NCBI GenBank assembly: GCA_002717835.1
Contig: PBBV01000022.1
Location: 1 to 42,423, forward strand
DNA: 42,423 nucleotides
DNA from: Methanobacteriota archaeon
GTDB lineage: Archaea > Thermoplasmatota > Poseidoniia > Poseidoniales > Thalassarchaeaceae
Direction of reading: 5' to 3'
Below are positions 13,626 through 21,380 of this stretch, piece after piece. Under the pieces are notes generated by a model that saw only the letters and a list, made by a program, of their open reading frames with translations, was not told the DNA's origin and did no database searches. How positions within the stretch are numbered: position 1 is the first letter of the stretch; each line of letters opens with the position of its first letter. The position numbers and the translations under genes were made by a program.

Positions 13626-14216
13626 TTACCCCAAGGCTCCTTCGAAACTGACCAATTCATCCCAATCGGCCCAGTAGGAGTGATCTAGCGAGTCAACACT
13701 TCCATCGCTGCGATATATTTGGAGAGTTGGTGTAGATGGCTGATTGAATGCCTCGTAAATGCTTTGAGAGGAAGTCTGACCGGTATCCAAATTTTTCACC
13801 CCAGCGTCTTCATTGGGAAGCATAACTGGCCAGGTAGAGGGGTGTTCTGATTCATCTGACACATATGTCGATACTACTTCTTCCTCACTTTCAAACGCAG
13901 CATATCTGTGAATCGTGATGACTCTTCCCTCCTCTATTGTTCCATTTGCTATGCCTGAGTGTATCATGTCGGTCCAATCATGGCATCCCCTGCATGTGGC
14001 TCCTACCCACAAAACAAGTACGTCTTTTCCATTGGAGATATCCTGTAAATCTGCTGTGCTTGATGAGTTATTGCTTCCATAATATGTCGAGGCCTCAAAC
14101 GAGATCCGAGCGGGGGAATCATCCTCTGTGTCAATATCTTCTATGGATAGTTCAGGAGCAACACAACCAGATAATGAAGCAGACAGGAATGCAGCGATAA
14201 TAACGAAACGCATCAT
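13626..14216 (-). CDS. Thioredoxin-like lipoprotein with CxxC
   Basis: The product has 196 aa. It starts with a lipoprotein signal peptide (MMRFVIIAAFLSASLSGCVA, lipobox LSGC). An acidic linker (SIEDIDTEDDSPA) follows, then a thioredoxin-like domain: DVLVLWVGATCRGCHDW gives the strand plus CRGC active site, and PSTPTLQIYRSDGSVDSL carries the cis-Pro-like segment. A redoxin attached to the outer face of the membrane is likely. The start overlaps the crtI stop by 4 nt, so it belongs to the carotenoid operon. A longer frame to 14309 lies inside crtI and is rejected. Its partner is unknown; disulfide control of an envelope enzyme, or delivery of reductant to the neighbouring membrane protein, are possibilities. 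Confidence 0.82.
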   Translation of the reverse strand: MMRFVIIAAFLSASLSGCVAPELSIEDIDTEDDSPARISFEASTYYGSNNSSSTADLQDISNGKDVLVLWVGATCRGCHDWTDMIHSGIANGTIEEGRVITIHRYAAFESEEEVVSTYVSDESEHPSTWPVMLPNEDAGVKNLDTGQTSSQSIYEAFNQPSTPTLQIYRSDGSVDSLDHSYWADWDELVSFEGALG

Positions 14217-15811
14217 GTCACCACGGTTGAGGGCCTCGCAGATATCTGATTCGAAGTCTGCGGTATTGGGTGCTTTGAGTGGGGGAACCATGTATCGACA
14301 CCGTTCCATTCTGGGTGGATACCCATGTCAGCAAGAAGCAGCTTGCTGGTAATTCGTCCGGATTCGAATATTGTTGGTAGTCCGCTTCCGGGATGTGTAC
14401 CTCCCCCAACGAGATAAAGCCCCTGCAATTCTTTGAATTTGTTTCCCGGTCTCAGGAATAGCATCTGATCTAAACTATGTGCTAGATTGAACACTGCGCC
14501 TCGATAAATGTCCGAAGCACCCCAGTCGTCAGGTGTCACAATAGATTCGCTTACGATATGTTCTTCTAGGTTTGTGAATCCTAACTTTTCCATTTGTTTG
14601 ATAATCACGTCGCGATAATCGTGTTTGATGCTCTCCCAGTCGATTGAATCATTGACGTTTGAAACAGGAACCAAGACGTAGAGCGTGGAGCATCCCTCTG
14701 GGGCCAAACTGGGATCGGTTACGCAGGCATTCTGTACGTAGATTGAGGGGTCTTCCCAAGTAATTCGATGCTTTGTTATATCCTCGAGATTGGATTCATA
14801 TTCCTTCGATGCGTAGATTTGGTGATGAGGCTGGTCCCATGTTTTATCTGTGCCGATATACAGCATAAATGTGGAGCAAGAGTACGATTTTTTTGCCAAT
14901 TTCTTATCGCTCCATCTAGGCCTTTTTTCATTGGGAACTAATGAAGTCATACCATTGGCAAAATCTGCGTTCATGATGACCCTGTCACATCGTATCTCGC
15001 CCTTGTCGGTATTTACACCCACGACGCGCTTACCCTCTAGAATCAACTCATTTACTGGCGTCGAAAGACGAATTTCGGCCCCCAGTTCAACAGCAATGTC
15101 CGCCATTCTTTCAGTAATGCTACCTAATCCACCCTTTGCGTGATAAATTCCGTGTTCGTATTCTAAGAAGGCCAAGATTGTGAACAAAGAAGGTGCTTGA
15201 AATGGGCTCATTCCGAGATATTTCGTTTGAAACGACATCGCTAGTCTAATTCGTTCATCCGGGAATAGCCGTTTCAAATCACTTGCAACAGTAGACCATG
15301 GCCTCATAACGGATGCTGCCTCGATCGCCTTTCTGCTGAATAAATCTGAAACACCATTCCAAGGGGACTGCAGACTTGACTTGCTCCTGTCTAGCTTTCG
15401 CCTATTTTCCAAGACATATTTTTTGAAACCGGCTGCATTTTCCTCGCCCGATAAACTCCTCACTCTCTCAGTCATTTCATCCAAATCGCTTGTAGCTTCG
15501 ATAGAACCGCCTTTTCCGAAAACCAATTTGTAGGAGGGATCGAGAGGAATGAGCCCGAGCTCTTTATGGGCATCAAGACCTACTGCCCGGAATATCTCTT
15601 CGATAATTTCGGGGTAGTGAAAGAATGTGGGCCCTCGGTCGAATTTGAAACCGTCTTGCTCTATAATTTTAGTACGGCCTCCCACCTCTGCACATTTTTC
15701 TACAACAACCACATCAAGACCGGAGTGGGCCAGTAGCATAGCGCTAGCTAGACCTCCCGGCCCGGCACCAACAATCAGTACATCCGGATCAGATCTCTGA
15801 GAATCAGACAT
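14213..15811 (-). CDS. crtI: Phytoene desaturase (CrtI-type)
   Basis: CrtI introduces double bases into phytoene toward lycopene using FAD. The 532-aa product has the N-terminal FAD fold DVLIVGAGPGGLASAMLLAH, with VVEKCAEVGGRTKI, the substrate-domain DGFKFDRGPTFFHYP and the CrtI C-terminal signature GLYLVGGGTHPGSGLPTIFE. ATG 15811 lies 5 nt after the crtB stop with GGAGGAG upstream; the longer frame to 15841 is inside crtB. It is the second gene of crtB-crtI-lipoprotein-ABA4-like. The number of desaturation steps cannot be read. Related CrtI-family enzymes (CrtN, CrtD, CrtO) remain possible, but pairing with crtB favours phytoene desaturation. Confidence 0.92.
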   Translation of the reverse strand: MSDSQRSDPDVLIVGAGPGGLASAMLLAHSGLDVVVVEKCAEVGGRTKIIEQDGFKFDRGPTFFHYPEIIEEIFRAVGLDAHKELGLIPLDPSYKLVFGKGGSIEATSDLDEMTERVRSLSGEENAAGFKKYVLENRRKLDRSKSSLQSPWNGVSDLFSRKAIEAASVMRPWSTVASDLKRLFPDERIRLAMSFQTKYLGMSPFQAPSLFTILAFLEYEHGIYHAKGGLGSITERMADIAVELGAEIRLSTPVNELILEGKRVVGVNTDKGEIRCDRVIMNADFANGMTSLVPNEKRPRWSDKKLAKKSYSCSTFMLYIGTDKTWDQPHHQIYASKEYESNLEDITKHRITWEDPSIYVQNACVTDPSLAPEGCSTLYVLVPVSNVNDSIDWESIKHDYRDVIIKQMEKLGFTNLEEHIVSESIVTPDDWGASDIYRGAVFNLAHSLDQMLFLRPGNKFKELQGLYLVGGGTHPGSGLPTIFESGRITSKLLLADMGIHPEWNGVDTWFPHSKHPIPQTSNQISARPSTVVT

Positions 15812-15816
15812 GGACT

Positions 15817-16836
15817 TCACTCTCCTCCTTTGAAAGGCCAAACCATCAGGGTAGAGAATGCAAGGCCCATTTTCTTCATGAATCCAAGGCTAAGACGTCG
15901 AGATAGAACATCGCCGTTTCTACGTTCTGCTTCGTCAAGAATCTCCCCGTAGACCGATGCCATGGTCGAGGGGCTCGACCTGGAGTCTGATTTGATTAAT
16001 GGGAGGAGCCTGAGCGCGTTCTTCTGATGGGTTCTAACTCTGCTGATGTAGTGCCTCATGAATTCTTTCCATTTTCGACTCATTGGGAGATTGGAGTTGT
16101 ACAGATCCTCATTTGATATCCCAAACAACTCGAGATCTTCCTTTGGTAGGTAGACCCTTCCGCGACCGAGGTCTTCCTGGATGTCTCGGAGAATATTGAC
16201 CATTTGAAGAAAAATGCCCATTTCCTCGGCATGTTCTCTCGCATCTGGATTATCATAACCGTATATCTCAATTAGTGCTAAGCCCACTGTGGATGCAACT
16301 TTGTAACAATACCCCCTTAGGTCCTCAAAGGTGCGGTAATTCGTCGGGTAAAGATCATCTTCCATACCATCGATGAGCTGGTGTAGATCACTGATGCGTA
16401 TGGGAAACCGACTAAAGGTATCCTTCAGTGCAATGAAGATCGGATCTTTTACTGGCCGTCCTTCATGTGCGCGAGTTAGCATATCCCTGTAGTGAATCAG
16501 TGCTCTTAATTTCAGGGAATGATCTGGCTCAGGGTTTGATCCCTCCGATTGTTTATCGATTGAAAGAATGAGTGATCTGTCGGCGGTTCTGACGTCCATC
16601 TTGCTAATTGTCTCTTGGTTGATATCGGAAAAATCAGGGAGCCAGTCCCCATCTGCGATGTCATCCACACGACGGCAGAACGCGTAAAGAGCATAAACGG
16701 CGTTTCTTTTCTCGACGGGAAGATGTCTGAAAGATCGCAAGAAAGACGTTGAGGCCGCTTTTGTGATATCTCTGCAAATCGCATAGGATTCAACCAAGTC
16801 TGAACTCTTCGCAGACCTTCGTCCCATGAGAACCAT
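15817..16836 (-). CDS. crtB: Phytoene synthase (CrtB)
   Basis: CrtB condenses two geranylgeranyl diphosphates to phytoene, the first step of carotenoid synthesis. The product has 339 aa. Both Mg-diphosphate motifs are present: YALYAFCRRVDDIADGD and LRDIQEDLGRGRVYLP; SFLRSFRHLPVEKR is the usual N-terminal helix. ATG 16836 is placed 25 nt after the TATA of the shared composite promoter; ATG 16827 (MGRRS) is an alternative. It leads the minus-strand carotenoid operon and is divergent from the DUF971 gene. GGPP synthase and lycopene cyclase genes are not in the window. In planktonic archaea of this kind carotenoid often feeds retinal for a rhodopsin, but no rhodopsin or Blh gene is seen here. Confidence 0.93.
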   Translation of the reverse strand: MVLMGRRSAKSSDLVESYAICRDITKAASTSFLRSFRHLPVEKRNAVYALYAFCRRVDDIADGDWLPDFSDINQETISKMDVRTADRSLILSIDKQSEGSNPEPDHSLKLRALIHYRDMLTRAHEGRPVKDPIFIALKDTFSRFPIRISDLHQLIDGMEDDLYPTNYRTFEDLRGYCYKVASTVGLALIEIYGYDNPDAREHAEEMGIFLQMVNILRDIQEDLGRGRVYLPKEDLELFGISNEDLYNSNLPMSRKWKEFMRHYISRVRTHQKNALRLLPLIKSDSRSSPSTMASVYGEILDEAERRNGDVLSRRLSLGFMKKMGLAFSTLMVWPFKGGE

Positions 16837-17265: not shown

Positions 17266-17327
17266 CGCTGACCCTCGACGCAGAATCATCGTGTCAGTGG
17301 TCTTTCCGACCATGACAGGTGATTCAC

Positions 17328-18743
17328 ATGGCCGCAGATCCTGATGAAGATGATGACCAAGTAGAGTGGGTTTCCTACTCAAATGCTGGTTATGGCTCCT
17401 CAGAAGAAGGCCTTTGGGAAGATGTCGTTCCAATCGAATCCCCTTCTGAAGAGATAGATTGGTATGATGAAAATCCCATCGAAGGCGAGTCTATGATCGA
17501 ATGGGATGCACCCCCATGTCCTGCCCCCCTGGGGATAGCATACTTGGCCAGGATAGGATGTTGTGATTTCTGCCTTCACAGATTGGGCGGCAGGAGAACC
17601 GATGCCGTCGGTGCGGAAGGAGGCGCAGCTCTCAGAAAAGAGGCGGAGAGAAGAGATCCAGAAATCGCCCTTCAGGGTAGCACCGTCGAATGCCCAACTT
17701 GTGAAAATTTACTTGAAGACGTAAACAACGTATCGAAGATAATCTCGGCGGCCTGCGACGGACTTCAGTTTTCCACCATGCAGATTGGCGTTCATATTCC
17801 AAAAGATCTGATCGAGGAAGAAGATCGTATACGCTCCAGATACGGTGCACCGGGAAGCAAGCCATTGAAAGCATCATTTGTGGAAGAGGTGCAAGTCAAT
17901 ACATCGGACATGGTAAAAGATATCGAATTTGTCAGGGAACGCCCAGATTTAATGGTCTTGATAGATACTTTGACCTTACGAGTTGACGTTGATGTACGCC
18001 CAGTTTTCCTTTATGGAAGATATAGAAAATTATCCAGAGGTATTCCGCAGACCAGATGGCCATGCAGGGCGTGTCGAGGCCGCGACGGCGGATGTGAATC
18101 ATGTGAATCAACAGGCCTTCAATACCCAGACTCAGTTCAGGACTTGATTGGAAAACCTGTCGCCGAACAAATGCAAGCTCAGGATACAGCATTTCACGGC
18201 ATGGGTAGGGAAGATATTGATGTCCGATGCTTGGGACAGGGACGGCCCTTCGTCCTAGAGGTGAAATCCCCAAAGAAGAGAACTCCTGAATTTGCTTCAT
18301 TGCTCAAATTGATTGAGGAAAATGCCGACGGACGAGTGGAAATCGATTCACTCAGGATATCCGACAGAAAAGAAGTAGCCAGGATCAAACAGACCAGATC
18401 TGAGAAAAGCTACACTATAAGATTCAAACCCGAATCATTAGAAGACCCTGACAAGGCATGCAACGACATACTTGCGCTATCGGGAACTATGATTGAGCAG
18501 CAGACACCAAAACGTGTCAGCCATCGTAGAGCCGATCGAAATCGAGTACGGAAGGTTGTATCGGTAGATCGAGTCGATGTAGTCGGCGATGAAATTGAAA
18601 TGACTTTGAGATGCGAGGCTGGAACTTACATCAAAGAATTGGTGCATTCCGATGAAGGAAGAACCACTCCATCAGTTACAAGCATCATTGGCGTCCCATG
18701 CGAGGTCGTCTGGTTAGATGTCGAAGATGTGCATGCAGACTGA
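17328..18743 (+). CDS. pus10: tRNA pseudouridine synthase Pus10
   Basis: Archaeal Pus10 makes pseudouridine 54/55 in the T-arm of tRNA. The 471-aa product has an acidic N-terminal extension (about 1-60) that is not typical. Next come a zinc-binding part (CCDFC and CPTC pairs, about 85-130) and a THUMP-like middle. The family motif YGRYRKLSRGIPQTRWPCRA is followed by a Cys-rich patch, then the catalytic part HGMGREDIDVRCLGQGRPFV with the catalytic Asp and EVKSPK. The C-terminus has TYIKELVHSDEGRTTPS. ATG 17328 is preceded by AGGTG; GTG 17319 is an alternative. It precedes the eL21-rpoF-ksgA cluster by 78 nt. Confidence 0.93.
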   Translation: MAADPDEDDDQVEWVSYSNAGYGSSEEGLWEDVVPIESPSEEIDWYDENPIEGESMIEWDAPPCPAPLGIAYLARIGCCDFCLHRLGGRRTDAVGAEGGAALRKEAERRDPEIALQGSTVECPTCENLLEDVNNVSKIISAACDGLQFSTMQIGVHIPKDLIEEEDRIRSRYGAPGSKPLKASFVEEVQVNTSDMVKDIEFVRERPDLMVLIDTLTLRVDVDVRPVFLYGRYRKLSRGIPQTRWPCRACRGRDGGCESCESTGLQYPDSVQDLIGKPVAEQMQAQDTAFHGMGREDIDVRCLGQGRPFVLEVKSPKKRTPEFASLLKLIEENADGRVEIDSLRISDRKEVARIKQTRSEKSYTIRFKPESLEDPDKACNDILALSGTMIEQQTPKRVSHRRADRNRVRKVVSVDRVDVVGDEIEMTLRCEAGTYIKELVHSDEGRTTPSVTSIIGVPCEVVWLDVEDVHAD

Positions 18744-18821: not shown

Positions 18822-19502
18822 ATGAAGAGAAGTCATGGAACACGTCAAGGGACTCGATCAATTCTGTCCCGCTCTAAATCTCAGAGAGGGAGAATAAACA
18901 TCACCAGAGTGATCCATTCCTACTCGGAGGGTGACAAGGTGTCAATCGTGTTGGACGGCGCCCAGCAAAAAGGAATGCCTCATCGTCGTTTTCAAGGTGC
19001 CACCGGCACCGTCAGGGCAAAACAAGGACGAGCATTCATCGTCGATGTACATGACAAGAACATGGCGAAGACACTTATCGTCAGGCCTGAACATCTCCGG
19101 CCCGCTGACGGCGCTCCAAAACCCGAAGTGCCACGCCGCCAAGGGCAGAAAGTCAAGGGTGAAGCCACCGATGCTCCCGCGAAGGGTTCTACGTCAAAAT
19201 CAAAGCAAGACAAGAAGAAGGCGGAACTTGAGCGTGTAAGAGAGCGTGCAAAATCCATCGATTTCAAGGTGCTTGGTACGGCGAAAGCCAGTGACAAAGA
19301 CGACCTCCAAATCATCAAGGGTGTTGGCCCGTTTATTGAAGAAAAATTGAACGCTCTAGGCATTTACACATACTTGCAAATCAGCAAAATGAAGGGGGAC
19401 CTGGAAGACCAAGTCAACGAGGCCATCGAGTTCTTCCCCGGTCGTGTGAAACGCGATCAATGGGTGAACCAGGCCAAAGATCTACTTAACGAAGAGGAGT
19501 GA
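18822..19502 (+). CDS. rpl21e: Ribosomal protein eL21 fused to a C-terminal helix-hairpin-helix domain
   Basis: Residues 1 to about 97 are archaeal eL21: MKRSHGTRQGTRSILSRSKS, YSEGDKVSIVLDGAQQKGMP with HRRFQGATGTV, and KTLIVRPEHLRP. The usual protein ends there. Here a charged linker (about 98-160, Lys/Ala/Glu-rich, probably coiled) leads to a helix-hairpin-helix domain (about 165-226) with LQIIKGVGPFIEEKLNALGI and RDQWVNQAKDLL. Very similar domains are fused to bacterial bL21, which is not homologous to eL21, and to some Complex I subunits. ATG start; the downstream neighbours rpoF, DUF655 and ksgA are the classic archaeal order. The tail may bind rRNA or protein at the ribosome surface. Confidence 0.93.
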   Translation: MKRSHGTRQGTRSILSRSKSQRGRINITRVIHSYSEGDKVSIVLDGAQQKGMPHRRFQGATGTVRAKQGRAFIVDVHDKNMAKTLIVRPEHLRPADGAPKPEVPRRQGQKVKGEATDAPAKGSTSKSKQDKKKAELERVRERAKSIDFKVLGTAKASDKDDLQIIKGVGPFIEEKLNALGIYTYLQISKMKGDLEDQVNEAIEFFPGRVKRDQWVNQAKDLLNEEE

Positions 19503-19507
19503 ATTAG

Positions 19508-19864
19508 ATGTCTGACTCAAATGAATATGTCGATTATGCGAAGGTGAGGGACCTTCTCCTGTCTGCCCAAGAACGTCGCCAAGAGCTTTCATACGAACAA
19601 CAGATGGCTCTGCAGCATTCTGAATGGGCCGCGAGCGCTCAGAGAGGTGGGATAAAGACCGATTCCAAAGTCTTCCTTGATCTATCGGCCGCCTTGTCGG
19701 CAAATGACAAACTTGGCGATCACCCGGACATATGTGCAAAGATAGCCGAGTTAATGCCTCTTAGTGTACATGCACTCCGAGTCATAATAGCCTCGAAGCG
19801 AATTGCAATGGATACTGATGAAGTCGAGTCAATTCTCGACATCGTACGCCAACACGTCCTTTGA
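19508..19864 (+). CDS. rpoF: DNA-directed RNA polymerase subunit Rpo4 (RpoF)
   Basis: Rpo4/F is the archaeal counterpart of eukaryotic Rpb4 and forms the polymerase stalk with Rpo7. The product has 118 aa, the family length. YVDYAKVRDLLLSAQERRQE and the C-terminal HRDC-like repeat SVHALRVIIASKRIAMDTDE (helix with 'LR.i.a......d..e...IL') match. It starts 5 nt after the eL21 gene and is followed at 56 nt by the DUF655 gene. Confidence 0.92.
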   Translation: MSDSNEYVDYAKVRDLLLSAQERRQELSYEQQMALQHSEWAASAQRGGIKTDSKVFLDLSAALSANDKLGDHPDICAKIAELMPLSVHALRVIIASKRIAMDTDEVESILDIVRQHVL

Positions 19865-19920: not shown

Positions 19921-20484
19921 ATGTCGGACGATCGAGAGGACGAAACTCCCGATGAAATGCAAGCTGAGTCCATGGTCAGAGTCCTCTCTGTCATCGAGCG
20001 CAGACCAAGAGGCATGGAGATTCATGGCCTCACCCACCCTGGGCTTTTCTTAGTACGTGCAAAAATCATGCAAAATGGCACTTTATCGTCCGATGTCGGT
20101 TGGATCCCAATAGAGGATGCCCGCATAGGACCACTTTCCAACATAAGAAAGAAAGACATCTCCCTGGACAATGAGGACGATTTGAATGGGGCTATCGTAG
20201 AATCAATAGCAATGGATGAATCAGTACACCTTTCATTCTTCAACAGAGCACAGCCAATATCTTTGAAGATGCACTCATACCAACTTCTCCCTGGAATCGG
20301 TAAATCAACAGCCCAACAGTGGGTCTCCAAGAGAGGATCTATGGGATGGAACGATCTTCACGGAGTCACTAACGCTATTGGTCAGGACGCTTCTAAATTG
20401 TTAGCCGAGAGATACGCACAAGAAATGGAGGATCCTGCACAATCTCCAAGATTGATTGATCTCGTTGTACGTGCTGGGGCTTAA
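19921..20484 (+). CDS. DUF655 family protein (OB-fold-like plus HhH)
   Basis: The product has 187 aa. The DUF655 family lies almost always between rpoF and ksgA in archaea, and this one does too. The N-terminal acidic leader (1-15) is followed by an OB-like beta domain (MVRVLSVIERRPRG, VGWIPIEDARIGPLSNI). A C-terminal helix-hairpin-helix follows with YQLLPGIGKSTAQQWVSKRG and a segment corresponding to the 'F.S..dl..rv' region (MGWNDLHGVTNAIGQDASKL). It probably binds RNA or DNA; the exact role is not known. ATG 19921 follows an AGGGG stretch, and the gene ends 2 nt before the TTG start of ksgA. Confidence 0.9.
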   Translation: MSDDREDETPDEMQAESMVRVLSVIERRPRGMEIHGLTHPGLFLVRAKIMQNGTLSSDVGWIPIEDARIGPLSNIRKKDISLDNEDDLNGAIVESIAMDESVHLSFFNRAQPISLKMHSYQLLPGIGKSTAQQWVSKRGSMGWNDLHGVTNAIGQDASKLLAERYAQEMEDPAQSPRLIDLVVRAGA

Positions 20485-20486
20485 TT

Positions 20487-21380
20487 TTGTCATTAACTAA
20501 CGGAGTTCGTGAAAATCCTTCCAGAATAGTCGATAGGTATCTCTCAAGATACGATATAGACCCAAATTTAGGTCAGAACTTCTTGACAGACCCGTCCCCT
20601 ATCCACAAATCCATTCGGGCTGCATGTGATCTCGGGCTAGGCAATGATTCTCATGTCCTTGAAATAGGTCCAGGTCCGGGAGTTCTAACCATCGAACTTC
20701 TTCGTCTGGGAACCAAGGTCACCGCAATAGAAATATCTCCAGATGCATGTGACTTTTTAGAGTCAGAATTCAACTATGAACACTTCAATATATTCAATGA
20801 AGACGCTTTGAAATCACAATGGCCAACAGATATAACACATATTGTGGCGAACATACCTTACAGCATCTCCAGCCCTATTCTTGAAAGAATACAGGATTAT
20901 CACCAATTAAATCCTTTAGAGGGTGTCTCATTACTCGTTCAACGAGAATTTGCTCATAGGATGGTCATGAAGAGTATTCCAAAAGACAGAGGCCCACTAG
21001 GAATCGCTCTTTGGCTTGATTTTGAATCTACGATTATCTCGGATGTCCCTTCTTCTTCATTCAGACCGCAACCCGATGTGACCTCCTCTATCGTAACTCT
21101 TCGACCTGTTTCCAGAACCGAACTTCAGGATGTAAGTAGGAAATTAATTCGAAGAATATCTACTTGGTGTTTTGGGAAACGAAGACGGAAGATTCGAACG
21201 TCTCTGAGAGATTTACCTCGGAGGGTGTTGAAGATTGGAAAATGGTCACCTGATGATTGGCTCCAGATATTGGATAATTTGGAAAAACAAGGTGGCGAAC
21301 TTCAGGGCTTCATGGACAAACGCCCAGAGGAACTTACACCTGAACAGTGGACGTCTATTTGTCGCGTAATCTCAAGTTGA
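20487..21380 (+). CDS. ksgA: 16S rRNA dimethyladenosine transferase KsgA/Dim1
   Basis: KsgA dimethylates two adjacent adenines in helix 45 of 16S rRNA. The 297-aa product has DPNLGQNFLTDPSPIHKSI, the SAM motif VLEIGPGPGVLTIELL, VTAIEISPDACDFLESEF and the catalytic-loop NIPYSISSPILERI (NLPY in most members). The C-terminal helical part has FGKRRRKIRTSLRDL. The start appears to be TTG 20487, 2 nt after the DUF655 stop; no in-frame ATG precedes the SAM domain. It closes the eL21-rpoF-DUF655-ksgA group. Confidence 0.93.
   Translation: MSLTNGVRENPSRIVDRYLSRYDIDPNLGQNFLTDPSPIHKSIRAACDLGLGNDSHVLEIGPGPGVLTIELLRLGTKVTAIEISPDACDFLESEFNYEHFNIFNEDALKSQWPTDITHIVANIPYSISSPILERIQDYHQLNPLEGVSLLVQREFAHRMVMKSIPKDRGPLGIALWLDFESTIISDVPSSSFRPQPDVTSSIVTLRPVSRTELQDVSRKLIRRISTWCFGKRRRKIRTSLRDLPRRVLKIGKWSPDDWLQILDNLEKQGGELQGFMDKRPEELTPEQWTSICRVISS

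Follow-up and report, generated by a model that had tools for sequence, protein, structure and literature searches.

An archaeal ribosomal protein eL21 with a promiscuous HhH-type C-terminal module of apparently archaeal descent

Background

Ribosomal proteins normally admit few fusions, and helix-hairpin-helix (HhH) domains usually bind nucleic acids. In a 42,423-nt stretch of archaeal DNA (the window; contig C22 of a 1.21 Mb metagenome-assembled genome (MAG) that is 79% complete), the ribosomal protein eL21 ends in an HhH-type tail, which raises the question of where this tail came from and what it does on a ribosome. An initial annotation compared it to the extension of alphaproteobacterial bL21, and proposed that two unrelated ribosomal proteins had gained the same domain either by chance or owing to a general ribosome-associated role. 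In the papers searched we came upon no description of the eL21 fusion and nothing useful that joins L21 or bL21, HhH and Alphaproteobacteria. Here we describe the fusion, its relatives on other proteins and its distribution in the order Poseidoniales, and weigh the functions that it might have.

Methods

The last 69 residues of the window eL21 were used alone as query against NCBIfam models of alphaproteobacterial proteins. dN/dS ratios were calculated by NG86, and the genus carrying the fusion was divided by means of a rooted Pus10-DUF655-KsgA tree. For the order Poseidoniales, the uncultured marine archaea of Marine Group II, the two-family scheme was followed (PMC6461757); by this scheme the genus most probably belongs to Candidatus Thalassarchaeaceae (MGIIb), the sister family of Candidatus Poseidoniaceae.

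Results

The fused gene and its surroundings

The fusion is encoded by a single unbroken open reading frame of 226 aa at 18822-19502 on the forward strand (Table 1). Its core is a genuine eL21, scoring 109.4 bits over the whole core against PF01157 (cut-off 27) and 112.9 bits against the NCBIfam eL21 equivalog NF003303 (cut-off 97), and the top Foldseek matches of the core are archaeal eL21 chains. The gene lies in the order pus10 - eL21 - rpoF - DUF655 - ksgA, which contains the archaeal arrangement eL21-rpoF-DUF655-ksgA; carotenoid genes of the phytoene desaturase and phytoene synthase families adjoin pus10 (window 14213-16836). In the AF2 model the protein is helical from residue 127 onward, with a helix at residues 128-143, and the HhH-type module is predicted to be folded (mean pLDDT 81). 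An assembly chimaera is ruled out by the presence of the fusion in six separately assembled MAGs and by a tail dN/dS of 0.02-0.07.

Table 1. Features of the eL21 locus, in window coordinates
Feature	Position	Strand	Evidence
pus10, upstream neighbour	17319..18743	+	TIGR01213 1.5e-115
eL21 ribosomal core, residues 1-96	18822..19109	+	PF01157 at residues 1-95, E 8.7e-32
Low-complexity linker, residues 97-126	19110..19199	+	pLDDT <50 at residues 98-126; predicted disordered
Module N-terminal helix and strap ELERVRERAKSIDFKVLGTAKAS, residues 127-157	19200..19292	+	Alignment; common to NuoI and surface-protein tails
HhH-type C-terminal module, residues 158-226	19293..19499	+	NCBIfam matches; hhalign 99.7%; AF2
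rpoF/Rpb4, downstream neighbour	19508..19864	+	PF03874 4e-6
DUF655 neighbour	19921..20484	+	PF04919 4.3e-15
ksgA/RsmA neighbour	20487..21380	+	TIGR00755 8.5e-52

The tail belongs to a module family shared with Alphaproteobacteria

The best bacterial match of the tail was the C-terminal extension of NuoE, a complex I subunit (NF009040; 9.4e-19, model positions 322-387 of 400), followed by the C-termini of S2 (2.4e-14), of bL21 (NF008916/NF008915; 6e-12 at positions 160-221 of 223, and 2.5e-11) and of the phasin PhaH (4.7e-7). Matches among PDB chains included 9wqv_a, a complex I subunit of 41 kDa (1.2e-11), and 8yy9_O (9.8e-11), which is protein-O in the RC-LH1 complex of Dinoroseobacter shibae. 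Both carry the homologous domain; protein-O differs from eL21 in being a bacterial membrane protein of a photosynthetic complex. The protein-O domain, which is flexible and invisible in the map, also occurs on NuoE, ATP synthase subunit E and an endonuclease, and its function has been called obscure (PMC12079452). When the profile of archaeal tails was aligned to alphaproteobacterial tails, hhalign returned a probability of 99.7% (E 6e-27, 66 columns, approximately 47% identity). The homology thus extends over the full C-terminal module of the NuoE/bL21/S2/PhaH/protein-O type. The window tail displays the pattern D-L..I.G.GP...L...GI....I....GR..RD.W..QA, of which the columns G, G, G, GR, R, W and QA are invariant in two module alignments (A2 and A3). 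By this profile evidence, one module family spans Poseidoniia archaea and Alphaproteobacteria.

Generic HhH proteins matched far more weakly than these relatives. The window tail did not reach the gathering score of Pfam HHH_5, Cdd1 or DUF4332, Cdd1 alone appearing, at 0.07; the tandem tails of some relatives do reach the HHH_5 and Cdd1 cut-offs. A Foldseek search started from the modelled tail returned nothing significant among PDB or viral structures; chain BS in an assembly intermediate of the Trypanosoma brucei mitoribosomal large subunit showed a weak, non-significant likeness (E 4-5.8, TMq 0.46-0.52). Neither the phages searched for the tail nor the viral contigs searched with the archaeal tail contained a match, and the alphaproteobacterial-type tail gave one distant match in the viral contigs. 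On an IMG/VR contig, a protein of Ig-like appearance (L170:4008-5183) terminates in a remote variant of the module. On Sinorhizobium pSymB, a module-ended ORF lies between nuoF and nuoG and is annotated just as NADH:ubiquinone oxidoreductase (L172:2560-3204).

These searches uphold the claim that eL21 is fused to a tail of the bL21-extension family, and the hhalign homology excludes a chance resemblance. The two hosts are indeed unrelated in their core folds, although both are large-subunit proteins, so the captures by eL21 and bL21 were independent; the whole window protein scores 54.1 bits against the bL21 model PRK12278 (cut-off 193), the match being confined to the tail. The choice of bL21 as the particular counterpart does not hold: since NuoE matches better than bL21, and the S2, PhaH and protein-O tails match too, the profile matches indicate that the module is a promiscuous C-terminal add-on, specific neither to bL21 nor to the ribosome.

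The closest relatives of the tail are archaeal and mostly non-ribosomal

A direct link between eL21 and bL21 likewise finds no support: the eL21 tail is most closely related to the C-termini of Poseidoniales NuoI and surface proteins. Over 92 columns, the window tail is 87% identical to a Poseidonia surface-protein tail and 78-85% identical, N-terminal helix included, to NuoI tails (L154, L157, L179); all top non-eL21 relatives (78-87% identity) belong to Poseidoniaceae or unplaced Poseidoniales. NuoI, the ferredoxin subunit of complex I, ends in the module in several Poseidoniaceae (L154, L155, L157, L163, L167 and L179:6307-7665) where its gene is part of a nuo cluster that also encodes NuoB, C, D, H, J, L and M, whereas the alphaproteobacterial complex I host is NuoE; NuoI of the window's own genus is without the module. 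In both Poseidoniales families, giant surface proteins combine RCC1, He_PIG and Ca-binding-like repeats with a TM segment, a coiled coil and one to three modules (L117, L121, L122, L020 and L057; open frame up to 4259 aa). Unlike eL21, these proteins are membrane-anchored and bear tandem copies, and some have an extra domain inserted between strap and module. Other Poseidoniales hosts are an alpha/beta hydrolase and coiled-coil proteins. Outside the order, two MGIII proteins that read as HEAT-repeat-like end in the module (L198:3152-4108, L199:2952-3908), and in other Thermoplasmatota, proteins of 250-293 aa combine a distant module version with a conserved domain in the middle (YFFSKH..; L200, L201 and L202).

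In a tree of 101 modules, built on few columns and without bL21 and S2 tails, which were compared as NCBIfam profiles instead, the eL21 tails cluster together (99/94) and are nested in starred forks (98/93, 99/93) with archaeal surface-protein tails, their nearest neighbours, and NuoI tails, and all ten alphaproteobacterial-type tips stand apart (100/100). A longer alignment left the neighbours unchanged with weaker support. The eL21 tail thus appears to have been copied from the archaeal pool of its own lineage, a surface protein or NuoI being the candidate donors, and we consider its archaeal origin and modular nature very probable.

The fusion is confined to one genus and has been lost and exchanged

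Mapping the phyletic range placed full-length fusions in 6/319 genomes of the order (G000, G003, G005, G006, G009 and G010), all within the 11 genomes of a single genus, and no full-length match elsewhere in the order, counts of absence that rest on incomplete MAGs whose contigs often end at repetitive tail genes. Among tail-less eL21 matches with long open frames, 13 loci were fetched and the eL21 motif was located in 10; all of these ten, which lie outside the genus, stop near residue 96.

The rooted tree splits the genus into clade A, comprising five tailed genomes (G000, G003, G005, G006, G009) and the tail-less G001, and clade B, comprising G004, the tailed G010 and the tail-less G002, G007 and G008. 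G001 pairs with G009 inside the tailed clade (87/88; 69 in another tree), and its eL21, ending in RRQDQKDMANEEE, keeps the final tail residues KDM-NEEE. Because of this position and these retained residues, G001 is read as having lost the tail once, secondarily, by in-frame deletion. This loss shows the tail to be dispensable, and we take it to be an accessory that the ribosome can do without rather than one of its structural elements.

In G010, a tract from about +290 to +820 nt, which includes the 5' end of rpoF, is 85-94% identical to G009, compared to 55-70% outside the tract, and the DNA up- and downstream is closest to clade B. The tail of G010 has a dS of 0.405; core dS is saturated in the computable comparisons. 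This identity pattern indicates that the tail reached G010 through a recombination tract of roughly 0.5 kb. Alternatively, as a short extension ending in EEE is common to all genus members and absent from the eL21 of other genera inspected, the tail may be older and genus-wide, with several subsequent losses.

Discussion

As best explanation of the whole, we favour, at a probability of roughly 0.55, an eL21 that carries a promiscuous, archaeal-derived HhH-type docking module on a flexible linker. The docking role itself is put forward tentatively, at somewhat less than even odds, because the domain is conserved, acidic and folded, follows a flexible linker, and occurs on hosts that evidently share only one thing, being part of large or membrane-linked assemblies that face the cytoplasm. 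The disordered linker would display a compact acidic module off the large subunit; this module would act as a protein-docking domain, bringing ribosomes to a cytoplasmic partner, probably of the kind bound also by the NuoI and surface-protein tails. We regard a common partner, or a link that it would make between translation and the membrane, as speculative.

The strongest competitor, although unlikely, is that the tail binds rRNA or mRNA as an extension which anchors or stabilises the large subunit, its HhH hairpin lying on the phosphate backbone. For an HhH domain, a role on RNA or DNA is conceivable. The host binds rRNA, the GVGP hairpin is kept (G39, G41 and P42 invariant in module alignment A2), and a remote profile similarity connects the tail to the HhH of DNA polymerase beta (E 0.011). 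The chemistry and context point elsewhere: the tail has a net charge of -6 and a pI of 4.5, unlike typical rRNA-binding extensions, which argues against rRNA binding, the linker is long and disordered, and the module's other hosts include NuoI, surface proteins and a hydrolase, none of which binds rRNA. A general ribosome-associated role, as initially proposed, likewise finds no support in the mostly non-ribosomal archaeal hosts and in the acidic tail beside a basic core (pI 11.7).

A neutral or selfish hitch-hiker, functionless on the ribosome and spread by recombination among repeated genes, would fit the sporadic distribution, the loss in G001 and the lateral move into G010. We think this explanation has little chance given the selection on the gene: dN/dS is 0.017-0.068 in the tail and 0.025-0.065 in the core (from computable comparisons, several of them saturated), so that purifying selection on the tail is as strong as on the core, next to a linker under relaxed selection (mostly 0.2-0.45, range 0.09-0.45).

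With an equally small chance, the module might self-associate or pair with other copies, so that tail-tail contacts tether ribosomes directly to complex I or to surface proteins. Such pairing would agree with the tandem copies in surface proteins and with the fact that, within the order, eL21, NuoI and membrane proteins all bear this module. Within the limits of MAGs that are 79-85% complete and whose surface genes often lie at contig ends, four fusion genomes (G000, G003, G005 and G006) yielded no module copy other than the eL21 tail, which counts against simple tail-to-tail pairing.

The broadest version of docking, in which the module would be a cross-domain tag recruiting the large subunit, complex I and membrane proteins to one and the same partner in the cytoplasm, Archaea and Alphaproteobacteria having each independently tagged one subunit of complex I and one large-subunit ribosomal protein and so coupled translation to the respiratory membrane, is a long shot. 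Least probable is that the archaeon recently acquired the tail horizontally from a bL21 (or NuoE) gene of Alphaproteobacteria: the tails are clearly homologous, and Poseidoniales and Alphaproteobacteria are both abundant in surface seawater, but archaeal NuoI and surface-protein tails are 78-87% identical to the eL21 tail versus approximately 47% for alphaproteobacterial ones, which form their own starred group in the tree, whose tips include no bL21 tails.

Conclusions

The eL21 of this Poseidoniales genus is a ribosomal protein that gained a module, kept it under strong selection, lost it and exchanged it laterally, the module having relatives on complex I and on ribosomal proteins in Bacteria, another domain of life. 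Comparisons of G001 with G009, and of G010 with G002, G007 and G008, offer a natural series with and without the tail. Through what its disparate hosts have in common, the obscure function of a widespread alphaproteobacterial domain becomes testable.
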